A DNA stretch of 64,000 nucleotides from Loktanella sp. DSM 29012 (GTDB lineage: Bacteria > Pseudomonadota > Alphaproteobacteria > Rhodobacterales > Rhodobacteraceae). Shown here in pieces: positions 4,735-26,133 of the stretch. The notes under the pieces are model-generated. The model did not search any database. It was not told the origin of the DNA and was given only the letters and a program-made list of their open reading frames with translations. Within the stretch, counting starts at the first letter, position 1, and each line of letters begins with the position of its first letter. A program made the position numbers and the translations under genes. The DNA lies in contig NZ_FOEJ01000001.1 of assembly GCF_900110705.1 (NCBI RefSeq), positions 193,501-257,500 on the forward strand. The letters run 5' to 3'.

Positions 4735-5556
4735 ATGTTTCAACCCGATCTTCGCAGAACACGGACGCGCACCGTCTTTGGCATGATGGAATTGATTTAT
4801 CACAGTGCCGTCCGCGACATCCGCAAGAGCCATCGCAACGCGCTGATGGGTCTGGTTCTGAACATTTTCCAGACGGTGCTATTCGTTCTCAGTTTCTACG
4901 CGATGTTCATGCTGCTGGGGATGCGCGGTGCCGCGGTGCGTGGTGATTTCCTGCTGTACATCATGTCGGGTATTTTCCTGTACATGAGCCATACCAAGGC
5001 GATGAACGCCATCGTCCAGTCCGAAGGCCCGGCCAGCGCGATGATGCAACACGCGCCGATGAACACGGTGATCGCGATCTGCGCATCGGCCCTGTCGGCG
5101 CTGTATCTTCAAATCCTGTCGATCCTTGTGGTGCTGTTTTTCTACCACGTCCTGTTCACGCCCGTATATATCGACCAGCCTATCGGCGCGCTGGGCATGG
5201 TGATTCTGGCGTGGTTTTCAGGCTGCGCCGTGGGCACGATTTTCCTCGCGATCAAACCCTGGATGCCGGAATTCGCGAAAATCGGCAGTTCGATCTACGG
5301 GCGGGTGAACATGATCGCCAGCGGCAAGATGTTTCTGGCCAACGCCCTGCCTGCGTCGATGCTGGTGATGTTCGACTGGAACCCGCTGTTTCACTGCATC
5401 GACCAGATGCGCGGCTTCGTGTTCGAGAACTATCACCCCTATAATTCCAACGTCAGCTACCCGGTCAAGGTTGCGATCGTCCTGCTGGTGCTGGGCCTGC
5501 TGGGCGAATTCTATACGCGGCGTCAGGCCTCTGCATCGTGGAACGCGGCACGCTGA
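4735..5556 (+). CDS. ABC-2 type polysaccharide export permease (KpsM-like)
   Basis: 273 residues with about six hydrophobic segments spread from residue 38 to the end. The C-terminal block NPLFHCIDQMRGFVFENYHP is characteristic of ABC-2 permeases that export capsule or O-antigen polysaccharide (KpsM/Wzm/RkpT). I chose the ATG at 4735, preceded by a weak AGGCAG, over an upstream in-frame start lacking family similarity. It is transcribed away from the polysaccharide genes at 1-4610. A matching ATPase (KpsT/Wzt) should exist but none is in the window; dnaK follows directly. Transported polymer unknown. Confidence 0.88.
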   Translation: MFQPDLRRTRTRTVFGMMELIYHSAVRDIRKSHRNALMGLVLNIFQTVLFVLSFYAMFMLLGMRGAAVRGDFLLYIMSGIFLYMSHTKAMNAIVQSEGPASAMMQHAPMNTVIAICASALSALYLQILSILVVLFFYHVLFTPVYIDQPIGALGMVILAWFSGCAVGTIFLAIKPWMPEFAKIGSSIYGRVNMIASGKMFLANALPASMLVMFDWNPLFHCIDQMRGFVFENYHPYNSNVSYPVKVAIVLLVLGLLGEFYTRRQASASWNAAR

Positions 5557-18098: not shown

Positions 18099-20588
18099 TT
18101 ACAAGTTCCGCTCGACCGATTCGCGCTCAAAGATTTCGATGACGTCACCGTCACGGATATCCTCGTAGTTCTCGAACGCCATGCCGCATTCCTGACCGGA
18201 CTGCACTTCGGCAACTTCGTCCTTGAAACGCTTGAGCGTTTTCAGCGTGCCTTCGTGGATCACGACGTTGTCGCGCAGCAGGCGCACGCCTGCGGACCGA
18301 CGTGCCACACCTTCGGTGACGATACAGCCTGCAACCTTGCCGACGCCCGTGACCTTGAACACCTCTTTGATGTTCGCATAGCCGATGAACTTTTCGCGGA
18401 TCTCGTCACCCAGCAGGCCGCTGGCGGCGGATTTCACGTCATCCACCAGATCGTAGATCACCGAATAATAGCGGATCTCGACGCCCTTCTGGTTGGCCGA
18501 ATTCCGCGCGGTCGCATTTGCACGCACGTTAAAGCCAAAGACAGGTGCACCGGATGCCTCGGCAAGGCCGATATCGGTTTCCGTGATGGCACCCACACCG
18601 GAATGCAGGACGCGCACGCGCACCTCGTCGTTGCCGATCTTTTCCATCGCCTGAACGATGGCTTCGGCAGAGCCTTGCACGTCGGCCTTGACGACGATCG
18701 GCAGTTCGCTGACGTTTTCGTTGGCCTTGGCGTTGGCCATCAGCTGTTCCAGCGTCGTGGCGGCCCCCAGTGCGGCCCGCTTGTCCTTGGCGACCTGTGC
18801 ACGGTAGTCGGCGATTTCACGCGCCTGCGCCTCGGTTTCGGTCACGTTCAGAACGTCGCCTGCCTCTGGCGTGCCGTTAAGGCCCAGAACCTCGACGGGA
18901 ACGGACGGACCGGCCTCTTTGACGCGGTCGCCCTTGTCGTCGATCAGGGCGCGGACCTTGCCCCATTGTTCACCCACAACAAAGATATCGCCCTGCTTCA
19001 GCGTGCCGTTCTGCACCAGAACGGTCGCGACAGGACCACGGCCCACGTCCAGCTGCGCCTCGATCACGGCGCCCATGGCAGCGCGGTCGGGGTTGGCCTT
19101 GAGTTCAAGGATTTCGGCCTGCAACGCGATGGCGTCCAGCAGGTTGTCCAGGCCCTGACCCGTCTGGGCCGAAACCTCGACGTCCTGCACGTCACCGGAC
19201 ATCGCCTCGACGATGACCTCGTGTTGCAGCAGATCCGTGCGGACCTTGTTGGCGTCGGCCGACGGTTTGTCCATCTTGTTGATCGCGACGATCATCGGGA
19301 CCTTGGCGGCCTTGGCGTGGTTGATCGCCTCGATCGTCTGGGGCATGACCGCATCGTCAGCGGCAACCACCAGAACGACGATGTCAGTGACCTGCGCGCC
19401 GCGTGACCGCATTGACGTGAACGCAGCGTGGCCGGGCGTATCCAGGAACGACAGGGTCTGACCGGACTTGGTCACCACCTGATAGGCACCGATGTGCTGG
19501 GTGATGCCACCAGCCTCGCCTGCGACGACGCGGGCGTTGCGGATCGCGTCCAGCAGCGACGTTTTACCGTGGTCGACGTGGCCCATGATCGTGATGATCG
19601 GCGCACGCGGTCTCAGGTCAGCGGGTTTGTCCTCGGACTGTTCGATGACCTGCTCGACGTCGGCATCGGACACGCGCACGACGCGGTGGCCGAATTCCTC
19701 GATGATCAATTCAGCGGTATCCGCGTCGATGGTCTGGGTCTGCGTGACCATCATGCCCATCTGCATCAGCGATTTCACCACGTCGGACACGCGTTCCGCC
19801 ATGCGGTTCGCCAGTTCGCCCACCGTGATTGCCTCTGGCAGCTGCACGTCGCGCACGACCTTTTCACGCTCGACCTGACCGCCCATCGCCTTTTGACGAT
19901 TGCGTTCCTGCTTGCGCTTCATGGCGGCCATGGATTTCGGACGACCGCCGGCACCGCCGCGCAATGCGTCGTTGACCGTCAGCTTGCCGGACCGGCGACC
20001 ATCGTCACTGCGGCCGGGTTTGCTGTCGCGGGGTTTCACGTCGCGGTCACGGTCTGTCTTGCGCGGCGCGGCAGAGGGGCGCGACACGGCTGTTTCGCCG
20101 GGTGCTGCGGCAGCCGGATCGGGGGACGCGGCAGGCGCAGGCGCGTTTTTCGCGGCCTCTTCCTTGCGGCGCTTTTCCTCTTCCTCGGCGGCTTTTGCCT
20201 TGGCGCGTTCTTCGCGTTCGCGGTCTTCGGCCTCTTTTGCCTCGATTTCGGCACGACGGCGGTCACGCTCTTCGGCGCGCGCCTTTTCCTCGGCGGCACG
20301 TTTCGCAGCGTCCTCGGCCTCGCGGGCCTTGGACATGGCGAGTGCCTTCATCCGGCGCTCCAGCTCGGCATCGGAAATGCCTGCGGGCCGCTTGGACGGA
20401 TCGCCGCCCAGTCGGTTTGCTGTTCCGGATGTCGTGGGTTTCGCTGCACCGGGTTTCGGCACAACCACGCGCTTGCGCTTGGTTTCCACAACAACGTTCT
20501 TGGTCCGTCCATGCGAAAAGCTTTGCTTTACGTTGCTGGGGCGGGACCCGCCAAGGCCGAGTGGTTTCTTGCCGTCAGTATCGCTCAT
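18099..20588 (-). CDS. infB: Translation initiation factor IF-2
   Basis: 829 residues. It recruits fMet-tRNA to the 30S subunit and drives subunit joining with GTP. The first 300 residues include an IF2-associated N-terminal segment and a long highly charged stretch rich in K, E, R and A. The G domain follows: [19 protein letters not shown] near residue 333 (G1), [16 protein letters not shown] near 380 (G3) and AINKMDKP near 434 (G4). Domains II-IV run to the end, with the C-terminal [16 protein letters not shown]. Last gene of the operon, four bases after ylxR, with a strong terminator downstream. Confidence 0.99.
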
Positions 20589-20592
20589 CTAG

Positions 20593-21219
20593 CTATATAT
20601 CCTTCCCGACAGCCGGATCGCTGTCGTCAATCTCGCGCAGGCCGCGCAGTCTTGCGGCCTCCATTACAACACGGTCGCTAATTCCGCCAGTCGCGAGCGC
20701 ACCATGTATCACACTTTGCCGTCCGAATGCCAAACCCAGTTCGGCACCCGTCAGGCAGTTAAAATAGCGGGCCCCTTCCGGGGTCCAGAGTTTCGCCTTG
20801 CCGCGGTCAGACCCATCGGCAGCCTGCAACAACACGCGGACACGCGCGCCACCCGCCAGCCAGCCCTTGACCTTTTCAAAGCCACAGATCGCCAGACCCG
20901 CCTTGCGGGCCATCGCAATCAGGTCAATCACACGCCGCGTCATCTGGCGTTCAACCTCGTCCGCCAGATCGTCAGGCACCGTCACCGCCTGTTTCGCGGA
21001 TCGGCTGAACTGGCCCTTTTTCGCGGCATCCAACGCGTCACGGGTGGATGACACATACATGCCACGTCCGGGCAGTTTTTCCAGTACATCGGGCACAACA
21101 AGATTTTCTGGCCCCACGACGAACCGAACCAGACCCGATTTCGGGGCCGTCTCGCCGGTGACGATGCACCGCCGTTCGGGGCCATCATCCCGGTTCTTTT
21201 TCAATCCGCCGCGCGCCAT
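20593..21219 (-). CDS. YlxR-type RNA-binding protein fused to an L7Ae-like domain
   Basis: 208 residues from the ATG at 21219 (MARGGLKKNRDDGPERR), 16 bases after the nusA stop. An earlier in-frame start would lie inside nusA. Residues 15-95 match the YlxR (DUF448) fold, with RRCIVTGETAPKSGLVRFVVGPE and the PGRGMYV signature. Residues about 95-180 (RVIDLIAMARKAGLAICGFEKVK) resemble the ribosomal protein L7Ae/L30e fold. This fusion between nusA and infB is the standard arrangement in alphaproteobacteria. The role is probably linked to RNA or ribosome function and is not defined. Confidence 0.9.
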   Translation of the reverse strand: MARGGLKKNRDDGPERRCIVTGETAPKSGLVRFVVGPENLVVPDVLEKLPGRGMYVSSTRDALDAAKKGQFSRSAKQAVTVPDDLADEVERQMTRRVIDLIAMARKAGLAICGFEKVKGWLAGGARVRVLLQAADGSDRGKAKLWTPEGARYFNCLTGAELGLAFGRQSVIHGALATGGISDRVVMEAARLRGLREIDDSDPAVGKDI

Positions 21220-21235
21220 CGCGATGTCAGAGGCC

Positions 21236-22846
21236 TCAGGCCTCTGCCTCCTGGTCCATATCGGCATCGTCCGTGTCAGATACAAGGTCATCGGGATCGA
21301 CCCAACCCAGCATCACGCGGGCCGTCATGATCATGTTCTGCGCTTCTTCCAGGCTGATGTCGAATTTTTCCAGCGTGCCTTCGTCCTTGTGACGCTCACC
21401 GTTGACGATGGTCCAGCCACCGGCCAGTTCCCAGTCGGCACAGGTTGCGAAATCTTCGAGCGTTTTCACGTCATCCTCGGCCAGCGCCTCGACCATTTGC
21501 GGTGTCAGCCCCTCGAATTCGATCAGGCTGTCCTCTGCACCCAGTTCGCGAGCGCGATCCAGCGCCTTGGCGTTCTGCGCCTCCAGATAGTCGCGGGCGC
21601 GTGCCTGCAACTCGCCGGCCGTGTCGTCGTCCACGCCTTCGATGACCAGCAGTTCCTCTGCGTCGACATAGGCGACTTCTTCGAGGTTGGTGAATCCTTC
21701 GGACACCAGCAACTGCGCAAAGAATTCGTCCAGATCCAGCGTGTCCATGAACAGTTTGGTGCGGACTTCGAACTCGGCCTGACGGCGCTTGGATTCTTCT
21801 TCTTCGGTCAGGATGTCGATGTCGAGACCGGTCAGCATCGACGCCAGACGCACGTTCTGACCGCGACGACCGATGGCCAGGCTCAGCTGTTCATCGGGCA
21901 CGACCACTTCGATCTTGCCAGCTTCTTCGTCCAGAACGACCTTGCTGACCTCGGCGGGCTGCAATGCATTCACCAGGAACGTCGGCATGTCCTCGTTCCA
22001 GGGGATGATGTCGATTTTCTCACCCTGAAGTTCGTTCACGACGGCCTGGACGCGGCTGCCGCGCATACCCACGCAGGCACCCACGGGGTCGATGCCGCTG
22101 TCATATGAAATGACGGCAATCTTGGCGCGCGAACCGGGATCACGGGCAACGGCCTTGATCTCGATGATGCCTTCGTAGATTTCCGGCACTTCCATCTTGA
22201 ACAGTTCGGCCATGAATTCCGGTGCGGTCCGCGACAGGAAGATCTGCGGGCCGCGCTGTTCGCGGCGCACGTCCTTGATGTAGCAGCGGATGCGGTCGTT
22301 GGGGCGGTATGCCTCGCGGCCGATCTTTTCGTTGCGGCGCAGAATCGCCTCGCCAGAGCCTACGTCAACGATGACGTTGCCGTATTCCTCACGCTTGACC
22401 ATCGCGTTGATGATCGTGCCGGCGCGGTCCTTGAATTCTTCGTACTGCTTGTCACGCTCGGCTTCACGCACCTTTTGCAGGATCACCTGCTTGGCGGATT
22501 GTGCCGCGATGCGGCCCAGTTCGACCGGGGGAACCTGTTCGACCAACGTGTCGCCGACCTTTGGGTCCTCGATGTAACCCTTTGCGGTCTCGACGGTGAA
22601 TTGCGACTGATAGTTTTCGTATTCTTCCTCGTCCACCACCGTGCGCACACGGGTGAACGTCGCACGACCGGTCTTGCGGTCGATGCTGACGCGGATGTCC
22701 ATTTCAGCGCCATAACGCGACTTTGCCGCACGCGCGAGCGACTCTTCCATCGCCTCGACCACCAGACCGGGGTCGATGTTTTTTTCGCGTGCCACGGCCT
22801 CTGCGGTCTGCAAAAGCTCCAGCTGGTTGGCGGATGTAATGGCCAT
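21236..22846 (-). CDS. nusA: Transcription termination/antitermination factor NusA
   Basis: 536 residues. The N-terminal RNA polymerase-binding domain (1-130) is followed by S1, KH1 and KH2 domains: GSGEAILRRNEKIGREAYRPNDRIRCYI, DSGIDPVGACVGMRGSRVQAVVNEL and LAIGRRGQNVRLASMLTGLDI. Two helix-hairpin-helix-type segments follow (EGFTNLEEVAYVDAEELL near residue 375 and a second near 450), with an acidic tail. It modulates pausing, Rho-dependent and intrinsic termination. It starts in a one-base overlap with rimP (TGATG), so it is coupled to it. If it acts on the hairpin in the rimP leader it would regulate its own operon. Confidence 0.99.
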   Translation of the reverse strand: MAITSANQLELLQTAEAVAREKNIDPGLVVEAMEESLARAAKSRYGAEMDIRVSIDRKTGRATFTRVRTVVDEEEYENYQSQFTVETAKGYIEDPKVGDTLVEQVPPVELGRIAAQSAKQVILQKVREAERDKQYEEFKDRAGTIINAMVKREEYGNVIVDVGSGEAILRRNEKIGREAYRPNDRIRCYIKDVRREQRGPQIFLSRTAPEFMAELFKMEVPEIYEGIIEIKAVARDPGSRAKIAVISYDSGIDPVGACVGMRGSRVQAVVNELQGEKIDIIPWNEDMPTFLVNALQPAEVSKVVLDEEAGKIEVVVPDEQLSLAIGRRGQNVRLASMLTGLDIDILTEEEESKRRQAEFEVRTKLFMDTLDLDEFFAQLLVSEGFTNLEEVAYVDAEELLVIEGVDDDTAGELQARARDYLEAQNAKALDRARELGAEDSLIEFEGLTPQMVEALAEDDVKTLEDFATCADWELAGGWTIVNGERHKDEGTLEKFDISLEEAQNMIMTARVMLGWVDPDDLVSDTDDADMDQEAEA

Positions 22847-23472
22847 CAGTTCATCTCCTTGCGCGAACTCGGTCGCTTTTTCGATCTCTTGTCGGGGGCG
22901 ACGTTGTCGTCGCTGTCAATAATGGTCTGGACTTCGTCGAATTGGGTCTCGTCGATCAGGCCGCCGTCCTTGCGACCCTTGAGAGCCTCGCGGATCAGGT
23001 CGTCGGTCAGGACCAGTTTCGCATCCGACAGCCATTCGAATTTCAGGCCGATGGTGCCTTCTTCGATTTCGATCAGCACTTCGTCGCCCTCTACGCCGGC
23101 CAATTCGCCTTTGAACCGACGGCGACCGTCGATCAGCTCGTCCGTTTCGATCTTGGCCTCGAACCCCTGCCACTGTTCGAAATCCTTGAGACGGGTCAGG
23201 GGGCGGTCGATACCGGGGCTGCTGACCTCCAGCGTATAGGCGTCCAGGATCGGGTCCTCGACATCCATGACGGCGCTCACGGCGGTGCTGATCTTGCCGC
23301 AGTCGTCGACTTCGATGGTGCCGTCAGGTTTCTGCGCCATGATCTGGAGCGTCGTTTCCTTGCCGGACATCAGACGGATTCGCACGATTTCATAGCCCAG
23401 GTCCTCGACCACGGGGGTAATGATCTCTGCGATGCGACGGTCGATGGCCGCCTTGGCGATGAGGTCGTTCAT
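22846..23472 (-). CDS. rimP: Ribosome maturation factor RimP
   Basis: 208 residues from the ATG at 23472 ([18 protein letters not shown]), which has a strong GGAGG six bases upstream; the open frame continues to 23577 but crosses a terminator-like hairpin. RimP helps mature the 30S subunit. Family blocks seen: [37 protein letters not shown] and [25 protein letters not shown]. The C-terminal 50 residues are polar and end in a lysine/arginine-rich tail. First gene of rimP-nusA-ylxR-infB. Confidence 0.97.
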
Positions 23473-23488: not shown

Positions 23489-23512
23489 AAAAAAACGGGC
23501 GCGCGGCCCGTT
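23489..23512 (-). terminator. Terminator-like hairpin in the rimP leader (possible attenuator)
   Basis: On the minus strand AACGGGC/GCCCGTT (23494-23500 with 23506-23512, loop 5 bases) is followed by seven T (23495-23489). The T-run ends six bases before the rimP GGAGG. A second inverted repeat lies upstream at 23527-23553. No promoter can fit between this hairpin and rimP, so rimP transcripts must read through it. Confidence 0.75.
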
Positions 23513-23565
23513 CGAAATTCCGGTTGGGCGCTGGGGGTGGAGGCCAGCACGCCGCTGTTGAGCAT

Positions 23566-23594
23566 CACATAGAGCAACCTCAGACAAACTGCAA
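23566..23594 (-). promoter_or_regulatory. Candidate sigma-70-type promoter of the rimP operon
   Basis: On the minus strand TTGCAG (23594-23589), a 17-base spacer and TATGTG (23571-23566). It falls in the gap between the upstream binding-protein gene (stop 23627) and the leader hairpins. Matches are four of six to TTGACA and four of six to TATAAT, so this is only a candidate. Confidence 0.35.
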
Positions 23595-23626: not shown

Positions 23627-25084
23627 TCAGGCCATCCACCAGCGTTCGGCCATGCGCGCATCGTCCATCGGTCGCTGGTGCCCCAGTTGCGCTGGCGTGC
23701 CGATCCGCGTCGATGCGGCCTGAAGCGTCGTGGCAAAGGCCGGAATGATCGCGCGGCCCTGATCACGCAGCAGCATCTGCGCCTCGGCATAGACTGCATC
23801 GCGCAGGTCGGCGTCCATCGTGGACCGCCCCTGCCGCAGCAAGTCCCGGAACCGGTCGGACGCCTCGATCCCGTCGGTTGCCTGGCCATAGGCCGCCAGC
23901 AACATCCAGTCGGCGGTTGCCCGCCCGGCGGATCCGATCCCCGCACAGGTCAGAACCTCGCGGCCCGACGCATCACGCAAGCTGATCCGGGGGCCGGTTG
24001 CGCCCCATGACCCCGTGATCCGCGCTGCACCGAAACCAGCCTGCGCCAGATGGTAGCCTGCCCGGTCAGGATCGCAGGCCAGGGTGTGGCCAGCCTGAAA
24101 ATGAGGGTTTGCCGGGCCAATCGGACTGTCCGCGGCTACCTGACCATATCCCGCCAAGAGGTCGTCGACCCAGGCCTGCCGGTCTATCCCATGACGCAAG
24201 GCGGCCCGCAGATGATGTGCTGCCGGGCGCTGCGGCACGTGAAACGCATCGTGCTGGTTGCCCGACACCTGTTGTAGCGACAGTCGCGGATGTGCCGCGA
24301 TTGACGCCGCATCCGCCGGGGCGACCCGGTTGATCGCATCCACACGCCCCGCGAGCAACGCCGAGAGCCGGACTGCGGGATCATTCATCGCGACATAGTC
24401 AATCCGGTCGAACCAGCCCGCAGTCTCGCCCTTGTAATGATCGTCTACGCGCACCGCCGTCATGCGCCGACCCGGCCGAAACGCCGTCACGCGGTACAGA
24501 CCTGTGCCGATTCCGTCGCGCATCGCTGCGTTCATCTGGCCTGCCGGGTAGATCAACAGGTGGTGATCCGACAGCAAGTAGGGAAAATCCGCATTCGGCG
24601 CAGTCAGTTTCAACGTGACCTGATACGGGCCGGACGCCCGCAGATCGTCGATCAAACGCACGATTGCGCCCGCACCATAGGCGCGGTCGTCGTCGCGGTG
24701 CAGGTTCAACGAGGCGATCACATCCGCTGGGCCGAAATCCGCACCGTTGTGAAAACGCACGCCACGCCGCAGATTGAAAACCCAGGTCTGGCCATCCGTG
24801 CTGTCCCAGCTTTCGGCCAATTCACCCTTGAGGCTGCCATCCGCGGCGATTTCCGTCAGGCAATCGAACACTGCACCCTGACCCGCCGCAATCATGAACA
24901 GATCGCTGTGACCGCGCGCATCCCAGCTGTCGGACGGATGCGCCCCGCCCAGACCCGCGACCAGCGTGCCACCACGCGACTGCGCCCGCAAAGGCAGCCC
25001 TGTCAGCCCCAGCACACCGGCAGCCACCGCGCCCTGCAACAGGCGACGGCGGTTGGGGATAGTCGGTGCGCGTCGGTCTGACAT
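23627..25084 (-). CDS. ABC transporter substrate-binding protein, peptide/nickel family (SBP_bac_5), Tat-type signal
   Basis: 485 residues from the ATG at 25084; the frame is open further upstream but the conserved start is the twin-arginine signal NRRRLLQGAVAAGVLGLTGLP. Family 5 features include FDCLTEIAADGSLKGELAESWDSTDGQTWVFNLRRGVRFHNGADFGPADVIASL near residues 70-125, the hallmark region of oligopeptide/dipeptide-binding proteins, and GTGLYRVTAFRPG. The product would bind a peptide or similar solute in the periplasm. No permease or ATPase genes adjoin it, so it is an orphan binding protein. The ligand cannot be told. Confidence 0.9.
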   Translation of the reverse strand: MSDRRAPTIPNRRRLLQGAVAAGVLGLTGLPLRAQSRGGTLVAGLGGAHPSDSWDARGHSDLFMIAAGQGAVFDCLTEIAADGSLKGELAESWDSTDGQTWVFNLRRGVRFHNGADFGPADVIASLNLHRDDDRAYGAGAIVRLIDDLRASGPYQVTLKLTAPNADFPYLLSDHHLLIYPAGQMNAAMRDGIGTGLYRVTAFRPGRRMTAVRVDDHYKGETAGWFDRIDYVAMNDPAVRLSALLAGRVDAINRVAPADAASIAAHPRLSLQQVSGNQHDAFHVPQRPAAHHLRAALRHGIDRQAWVDDLLAGYGQVAADSPIGPANPHFQAGHTLACDPDRAGYHLAQAGFGAARITGSWGATGPRISLRDASGREVLTCAGIGSAGRATADWMLLAAYGQATDGIEASDRFRDLLRQGRSTMDADLRDAVYAEAQMLLRDQGRAIIPAFATTLQAASTRIGTPAQLGHQRPMDDARMAERWWMA

Positions 25085-25143
25085 GGCCTGCCTGTGCTGT
25101 GACTGTCTTGCAGGTTCGGCCGCAACGGCCGTCCTGTCAAACC

Positions 25144-26133
25144 CTATAGGCCCAGGGCCGCGCGCTGGGCGGCAAAGCGGTCCATCGCCCGCACCAATTC
25201 TGCGCTGATCCCCGGCTCCGACAGCGCGTGACCCGCGCGCCCGACCAGCTTCAGCGTCGACATCGGCCAGGCCTGCGACAGCCTGTAGCCCGAAATCGGC
25301 GGACAAATCATGTCATAGCGCCCCTGGACGATGACACCGGGGATTTGCGCCAGACGGTCCATGCGGTTCAGGATCGCCGTGTCGTCGTCCAGCCAGCCCT
25401 GATTCTGAAAATAGTGGTTTTCCAGCCGCGAAAACGCGCGGGCATAATCGGCGGGGGATTCGCCGGTCACACCATCGCTGTCTATCGCTGCCAGCGCGTT
25501 TTCCCAGGCAGCCCAGGCGCGGGCGTATTTGATTTCCTGCATCATGTCGCCGGAAAACAGGCGCTTGTGATAGGCCGCAATCAGGTCGCCGTGTTCGTCC
25601 TCGGGGATCAGCTTGGTAAAGCGGTCCCACAGATCGGGCCAGAACCGGCCCGCACCACCGCCATAGAACCAATCCAGTTCCGGCTGCGTCATCAGGAACA
25701 CGCCCCGGATCGCAAGGGCCGCTGCACGGTCGGGATGCGTTTGGGCATAGATCAGCGACAGTGTCGCACCCCAGCTGCCACCAAACACGATCCACCGGTC
25801 AATTTTCAAAGTTTCGCGAATCAGTTCGATATCGCGGACCAGATGCCAGGTCGTGTTGTTGCTGACCGCGGCGTGGGGCCTTGATCGTCCGCAACCGCGC
25901 TGATCGAACAGAATGACCCGGTAGTGTTCGGGATTGAAATAGCGGCGCATCGCGGGGCTGCATCCACCGCCCGGACCACCATGCAGGACGACCACGGGAA
26001 TGCCCGCAGGGTTTCCGCATTGTTCAACGTAGACCGTATGCCCATCACCAACGTCCAGAGTCCGCTGATCAAACGGATCAATCGGCGGGTAGAGATAGGC
26101 TGATGCGCTCTTTTGTTTCAGGCTTCTGTCCAT
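25144..26133 (-). CDS. pip: Proline iminopeptidase
   Basis: 329 residues from the ATG at 26133 ([22 protein letters not shown]). It removes N-terminal proline from peptides. Alpha/beta-hydrolase features: oxyanion loop [13 protein letters not shown] near residue 45, [12 protein letters not shown] near 75, nucleophile elbow [11 protein letters not shown] near 117 (Ser of GxSxG), the acid in [10 protein letters not shown] near 270 and histidine in GRAGHALSE near 299. This matches the S33 family. It is divergent from ubiG with 58 bases between starts, and 59 bases upstream of the peptide-binding protein, so peptide use may link the two. Confidence 0.95.

Follow-up and report, generated by a model that had tools for sequence, protein, structure and literature searches.

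A conserved attenuator-like leader ahead of the rimP-nusA-infB operon in Rhodobacteraceae and its candidate three-way-junction antiterminator

How cells set their NusA and IF2 levels has long been asked. In the 64,000-nucleotide stretch of Loktanella sp. DSM 29012 DNA analysed here (the window), the genes for both proteins follow rimP on the minus strand, and the leader between a solute-binding protein gene and rimP carries a terminator-like hairpin (Table 1). Does the cell decide at this leader whether the rest of the message is made? Comparison of leaders across the Rhodobacteraceae leads us to think that it probably does: we consider it reasonably probable that the leader is a transcription attenuator with two mutually exclusive RNA folds, with NusA as the most likely factor.

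Table 1 Features of the rimP operon leader and neighbouring genes (window coordinates)
Feature	Position	Strand	Annotation or basis
infB (IF-2)	18099..20588	-	Pfam IF-2, IF2_N
ylxR-like gene	20593..21291	-	Pfam YlxR; extent is that of the ORF, start codon uncertain
nusA	21236..22846	-	Pfam NusA_N and NusA-like KH
rimP	22846..23472	-	Pfam RimP_N and RimP C-terminal domain
Intrinsic terminator (stem and T run)	23489..23512	-	letters; conserved; compensatory changes in distant relatives
GCCGC, second strand of predicted antiterminator helix (end of terminator 5' arm and loop)	23503..23507	-	prefix fold, pairing
Linker AACCGG	23520..23525	-	near-invariant; prefix fold
Hairpin P1, GTGCTGG (23550-23544) / CCAGCGC (23534-23528)	23528..23550	-	covariation
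GCGGC, first strand of predicted antiterminator helix	23555-23551	-	pairing
Transcript 5' end, AACAGCGGC	23551..23559	-	permutation test, pair counts
Promoter-like motif, TTGCAG (23594-23589), 17 nt, TATGTG (23571-23566)	23566..23594	-	letters; motif conserved
Solute-binding protein gene (family 5)	23627-25306 (ORF)	-	Pfam SBP_bac_5; upstream of leader

Terminator, promoter motif and hairpin P1

The rimP gene starts with an ATG at 23472-23470, preceded by a GGAGG at 23482-23478. A first-pass annotation of this DNA had described a 7-bp GC-rich stem followed by seven T that ends six bases before the GGAGG, and the letters of the minus strand bear this out: AACGGGC (23512-23506) faces GCCCGTT (23500-23494) across a CGCGC loop, the T run occupies 23495-23489 with its first two T forming the last two stem bases, the six intervening bases are GTGCTT, and the distance from the T run to the rimP ATG is 16 nt. 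In this sequence alone the hairpin is not exceptional, as shuffled versions of a 1.2-kb region yield 0.8 ± 0.9 terminator-like sites where the sequence itself has one, which is within chance, and the fold of a 159-nt stretch has a z of -0.64. The hairpin exceeds chance because it is conserved in relatives.

A hairpin with a T run lies ahead of rimP in 80 of the 80 closest rimP relatives (the best 80 of 262), and a covariance model of the leader, built on 74 distinct leaders, has matches in 136 of 149 Rhodobacteraceae genomes in one search and in 367 of 394 in another. Conservation of the stem among relatives had been set beforehand as a test of the annotation, and these counts show that the terminator stem is kept; its arms are near-fixed in near relatives and vary in a compensatory manner in distant ones. 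Seven of the 13 unmatched genomes of the 149-genome search also have no RimP_N match, while the other 6 carry a GC-rich hairpin and T run upstream of rimP, as judged by eye, three of them with weak matches to the leader model. The model matches once in 131 of the 136 matching genomes, and the five second matches inspected in this search were rejected as true copies: two (L152, L153) are terminator-like stretches behind an S1-domain gene, as read from its translation, and three (L154-L156) fall in unrelated places. At 115 further primary-match loci, 55 and 60 from two sets, the next gene behind the leader is rimP in 114 and nusA in one (L165). A hairpin lacking the T run was seen once among 54 rimP leaders (L113), and two divergent family members (L235, L237) keep the terminator and miss the AACAGCGG end. 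L042, which lies on a cut contig, and exact duplicates were left out of the first alignment (A1).

The RNA is predicted to start at 23559, downstream of a promoter-like motif that is weak by consensus; a general promoter scan of this region of the window lists none here. In 190 of 193 leaders, a conserved AACAG has just upstream of it a -10 hexamer starting with TA and, at the right distance, a TTG-starting hexamer; of 2736 random upstream spots, 27 show the same motif. Since the motif so consistently lies just upstream of the leader, the terminator is placed, as far as sequence can tell, inside the 5' UTR of the rimP operon. The earlier claim that every rimP transcript has to pass the hairpin thus holds in this form: rimP-operon transcripts that begin at the conserved promoter motif must cross an attenuator-like terminator. 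For the orientation of the genes upstream of the leaders, two rough calls conflicted and were set aside.

A second inverted repeat, noted at 23527-23553 as a possible antiterminator, is real and corresponds to P1, for which changes on both sides are found in relatives at all 7 pairs (alignments A2 and A3); its proposed action as an antiterminator by itself does not hold, since P1 and the terminator do not overlap, and the two hairpins can coexist. Across genera, the P1 loop (23543-23535) often reads (G/C)(C/T/G)TCCA(A/C)(A/C), with other loops tolerated.

Between P1 and the terminator, CCG of the linker (23523-23521) can pair with CGG of the terminator arm (23510-23508), and 99.7% and 94.5% of cells are paired in two leader alignments; the linker shows little covariation because it is nearly invariant. 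Across Rhodobacteraceae leaders, the 5' end and the ACCG linker are near-invariant together. A helix between the 5' CGG and the linker CCG, as proposed by RNAalifold, was not preferred, since two leaders speak against it: in L125, the 5' end now reads GAGG and the terminator loop has changed with it, while the linker, CACCGG, is unchanged, and in L117 the 5' GCGG is lost, yet ACCG is retained.

Predicted pairing of the transcript 5' end with the terminator

The predicted transcript opens with nine bases, AACAGCGGC, that are complementary to GCCGC(UG) at the end of the terminator 5' arm and in the loop. In several leaders whose 5' end has departed from AGCGG, the loop follows it, with GAGG facing CCUC in L125, L246 and L299; further compensated variants are CAACGGC/GCCGUUG in L301, UGCGGC/GCCGCA in L142 and UCGCGGC/GCCGCGA in L112, and part of one clade has AACAG/CUGUU as its 5'-end/loop pair. 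In the RimP tree, the nearest neighbours of L125 and L301 have the common 5' end, the neighbour of L142 is another variant, that of L112 (L268) has the same 5' end as L112 itself, and L246 and L299 lie near one another and near L163, which has the common 5' end. Read from this tree, in which these nodes carry no support values, the compensated variants are likely to represent several separate events, with L246 and L299 perhaps reflecting one.

When the partners were permuted, a procedure that ignores kinship among leaders, the leaders' own pairing scored 14.05 against 12.95 ± 0.16 for permuted partners (105 distinct combinations), a value reached in 0 of 2000 permutations. For the 32 types without AGCGG, own pairing scored 12.4 against 10.2 ± 0.4, again with 0 of 2000 permutations reaching it; compared with the consensus 5' end placed on the same terminator, 8 of these variant types pair better, 9 equally well and 15 worse. 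This set omits L113, which lacks the T run, three spurious rows (L165:340-393, L240:1496-1527 and L241:1540-1593), and L241, whose leader is identical to that of L165. The closing helix is paired in 97.4% (A2) and 83.4% (A3) of cells, few of them altered on both sides, where the counts from A2 and A3 include spurious rows (one and two, respectively) and L241. Cis pairing would at least partly explain the conservation of the 5' end.

Prefix folding was used to follow the growing RNA. At 56-64 nt, the best predicted fold of the window leader is a three-way junction composed of the 5' GCGGC/GCCGC helix (complete from 57 nt), P1 and the pairing of linker CCG with arm CGG; the terminator takes over at 65 nt (-23.5 and later -25.7, against -22.4 kcal/mol). 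In the prefix set, which has the exclusions of the permutation set plus L233, 179 of 192 leaders pair their 5' end with the arm or loop of the terminator, and in 169 of the 192 the arm is also bound by upstream bases from the linker or the P1 side. When the first 10 nt were shuffled, 5'-end pairing was still seen in 1877 of 3840 controls (49%), so that half of the prefix signal is attributable to base composition. The pairing did not form in 13 leaders (L116, L126, L127, L161, L235, L236, L243, L253, L254, L260, L264, L266 and L271). Apart from these exceptions, the comparison points to an upstream segment that could pair with the terminator 5' arm and that is backed by covariation; it likewise supports the predicted terminator, the position of the promoter and P1.

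The predicted antiterminator is less stable than the terminator in 179 of 179 cases, with a median difference of 4.0 kcal/mol, and the terminator stem is present in the full-length folds of 160 of the 192 leaders. Because it is always the weaker fold, the antiterminator could act only through timing, and this would be the point at which a pausing factor such as NusA acts.

Known leaders, other Alphaproteobacteria and the gene probably controlled

The idea of an attenuator involving NusA is already published for this type of leader. The study of Naville and Gautheret (2010; PMC2965389) calls the rimP-leader the most ubiquitous transcription attenuator, describes a GGGc..gCCC terminator stem and U run in the 5' UTR, and proposes NusA as the regulator. 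For the general rimP-leader it gives neither a larger conserved element nor a visible antiterminator; a potential antiterminator, associated with a tandem terminator, is described for several Gammaproteobacteria only. Outside some Gammaproteobacteria, the logic of this leader was left to an unknown protein because no antiterminator could be seen. The leader described here resembles the rimP-leader in its location in the 5' UTR of the same operon and in its stem: CGGGC/GCCCG is followed by seven T and lies 16 nt before the gene, within the 4-130 nt that the definition allows between such a stem with its U run and the gene. It differs in that P1, the ACCG linker and a candidate antiterminator-forming 5' end are conserved. 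What is new here, supported by comparison but not proven, is the combination of 5'-end pairing, linker pairing and P1 into a putative three-way-junction antiterminator; our literature search, which left most subscription papers outside its reach, found no description of such an antiterminator or of this leader in Rhodobacteraceae.

Rfam family RF01770 (rimP) represents the leader of the same operon. In none of 21 genomes, this one among them, does it exceed its cut-off, and of 14 control genomes it does so in E. coli only; within the leader, it is absent among Rfam matches up to E = 10. No known riboswitch, T-box or sRNA in Rfam matches the leader over its gathering score, the best match being SorX with 15.7 bits against a cut-off of 46.6. 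An open frame of the kind used in leader-peptide attenuation is not a regular feature, with any ATG (the one start codon counted) in the first 60 nt of 46 of 194 leaders.

The leader of the B. subtilis nusA operon was reportedly the subject of work by Mondal et al. in 2016. According to a further source (PMC12288461), NusA-stimulated termination in this leader controls transcription into the nusA operon. The two systems share an intrinsic terminator in a leader ahead of the nusA operon and differ in that NusA dependence is reported for B. subtilis, whereas here it is a candidate role. For gbs0413-gbs0418 of S. agalactiae, PMC4448216 describes a short terminated RNA and a long transcript from one start site and suggests NusA feedback; with 31 nt from start to termination, that leader is too short for the three-way junction predicted here. 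For E. coli, PMC6511841 states that rimP is preceded by two terminators. By analogy with such systems and from its position, regulation of the present leader by NusA appears likely.

Which gene the leader serves is suggested by one genus. In G087, an inserted ORF separates rimP from nusA, the leader lies directly before nusA, and no leader-model match is found ahead of rimP; in G307, of the same genus, the leader likewise lies between rimP and nusA. As two species have the relocated leader, an assembly error is unlikely. This relocation, counted as one event, would favour nusA, or genes behind it, as the target. The ORF between rimP and the relocated leader of G087 (L239) resembles a CHRD/RTX-type protein, as read from its translation.

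To place the leader in a wider context, a class-wide sample of Alphaproteobacteria was examined, in which 130 of 152 genomes have a RimP_N match and 90 upstream regions were read, two of them from Rhodobacteraceae. A terminator hairpin lies within 300 nt upstream of the rimP start in 67 of the 90 regions, and a GTGGG-type motif is found in 54. The antiterminator test outside Rhodobacteraceae covered 26 of 54 leaders, the other 28 having no promoter call, and gave no signal in these 26 (mean 0.57, with 0.66 for the shuffles; 10 of the 26 leaders above their own shuffle mean). From the comparison of sequences, the antiterminator looks like an elaboration of the Rhodobacteraceae. A single leader from another alphaproteobacterial family (L196, G293) looks similar: ...ACAGCGG stands near the predicted start and the terminator reads GTGGGCCGCTGGCCCAC; 5'-end pairing may here reach beyond the Rhodobacteraceae. 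Leaders L180, L195, L204 and L216, also from other alphaproteobacterial families, share a stretch resembling TCCCA(TA)GG a short way downstream of the promoter motif.

Proposed mechanism and alternatives

In the mechanism that we propose, we infer that termination occurs in vivo, in which order the folds arise, and that NusA is the signal. RNA polymerase would start at about 23559, and once some 56-64 nt have been made, the 5' GCGGC would pair with GCCGC in the 5' arm and loop of the terminator while the linker CCG pairs with CGG of the arm, to form a three-way-junction antiterminator with P1 as its middle arm. When the 3' arm GCCCGUU emerges, the more stable terminator could displace the antiterminator and end transcription at the U run. 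A factor that aids terminator formation, or that slows the polymerase there, would shift this balance; the most likely such factor is NusA, encoded by the operon, and high NusA would then lower its own operon. The autoregulation by NusA that the first-pass annotation had put forward is, by analogy, a reasonable idea. A more specific version, in which the leader is a two-state switch of the Rhodobacteraceae, NusA decides between the folds through pausing or leader binding, and the leader belongs with nusA and not with rimP because of its place in one genus, is possible, and we offer it tentatively. The relocated leader indicates the gene likely to be under control, and the family-wide, covariation-backed antiterminator candidate makes the mechanism directly testable, as defined mutations can disrupt its pairing and re-establish it.

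A simpler attenuator, in which a protein (NusA or another) acts on the terminator hairpin and the pairing of the 5' end is a coincidence or has no effect, would agree with the published reading of the general rimP-leader (PMC2965389), with the other Alphaproteobacteria, where the terminator occurs without an antiterminator signal, with L235 and L237, which retain the terminator despite lacking the AACAGCGG end, and with an antiterminator that is always the weaker fold; however, it leaves aside the covariation of the 5' end with the terminator loop and its near-invariance in company with the ACCG linker across Rhodobacteraceae leaders, and we regard it as rather unlikely. We think it very improbable that the terminated leader, of about 70 nt, is a trans-acting small RNA with attenuation as a side effect. 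Such an RNA would have its own promoter motif and terminator, a 5' end strongly conserved in sequence and a sub-threshold Rfam match to SorX, but the conservation of the 5' end is at least partly accounted for by the predicted cis pairing, the alignment to SorX is at its strongest over the GGGC-loop-GCCC terminator that the two share, and no Rfam family is called here over its gathering score. That rimP is transcribed from elsewhere and the hairpin merely terminates the upstream family-5 solute-binding protein gene, which runs in the same direction and ends at 23627, about 115 nt ahead of the stem, is scarcely credible given the promoter motif between gene and hairpin in nearly all leaders, the conservation of the whole leader as one unit that goes with nusA in one genus, and the mere 16 nt left between the T run and the rimP start.

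Elsewhere in the window, at 5299-5451 on the minus strand, Rfam RF02645 ('Ruegeria cis2 sRNA') matches with 66.7 bits against a cut-off of 50.
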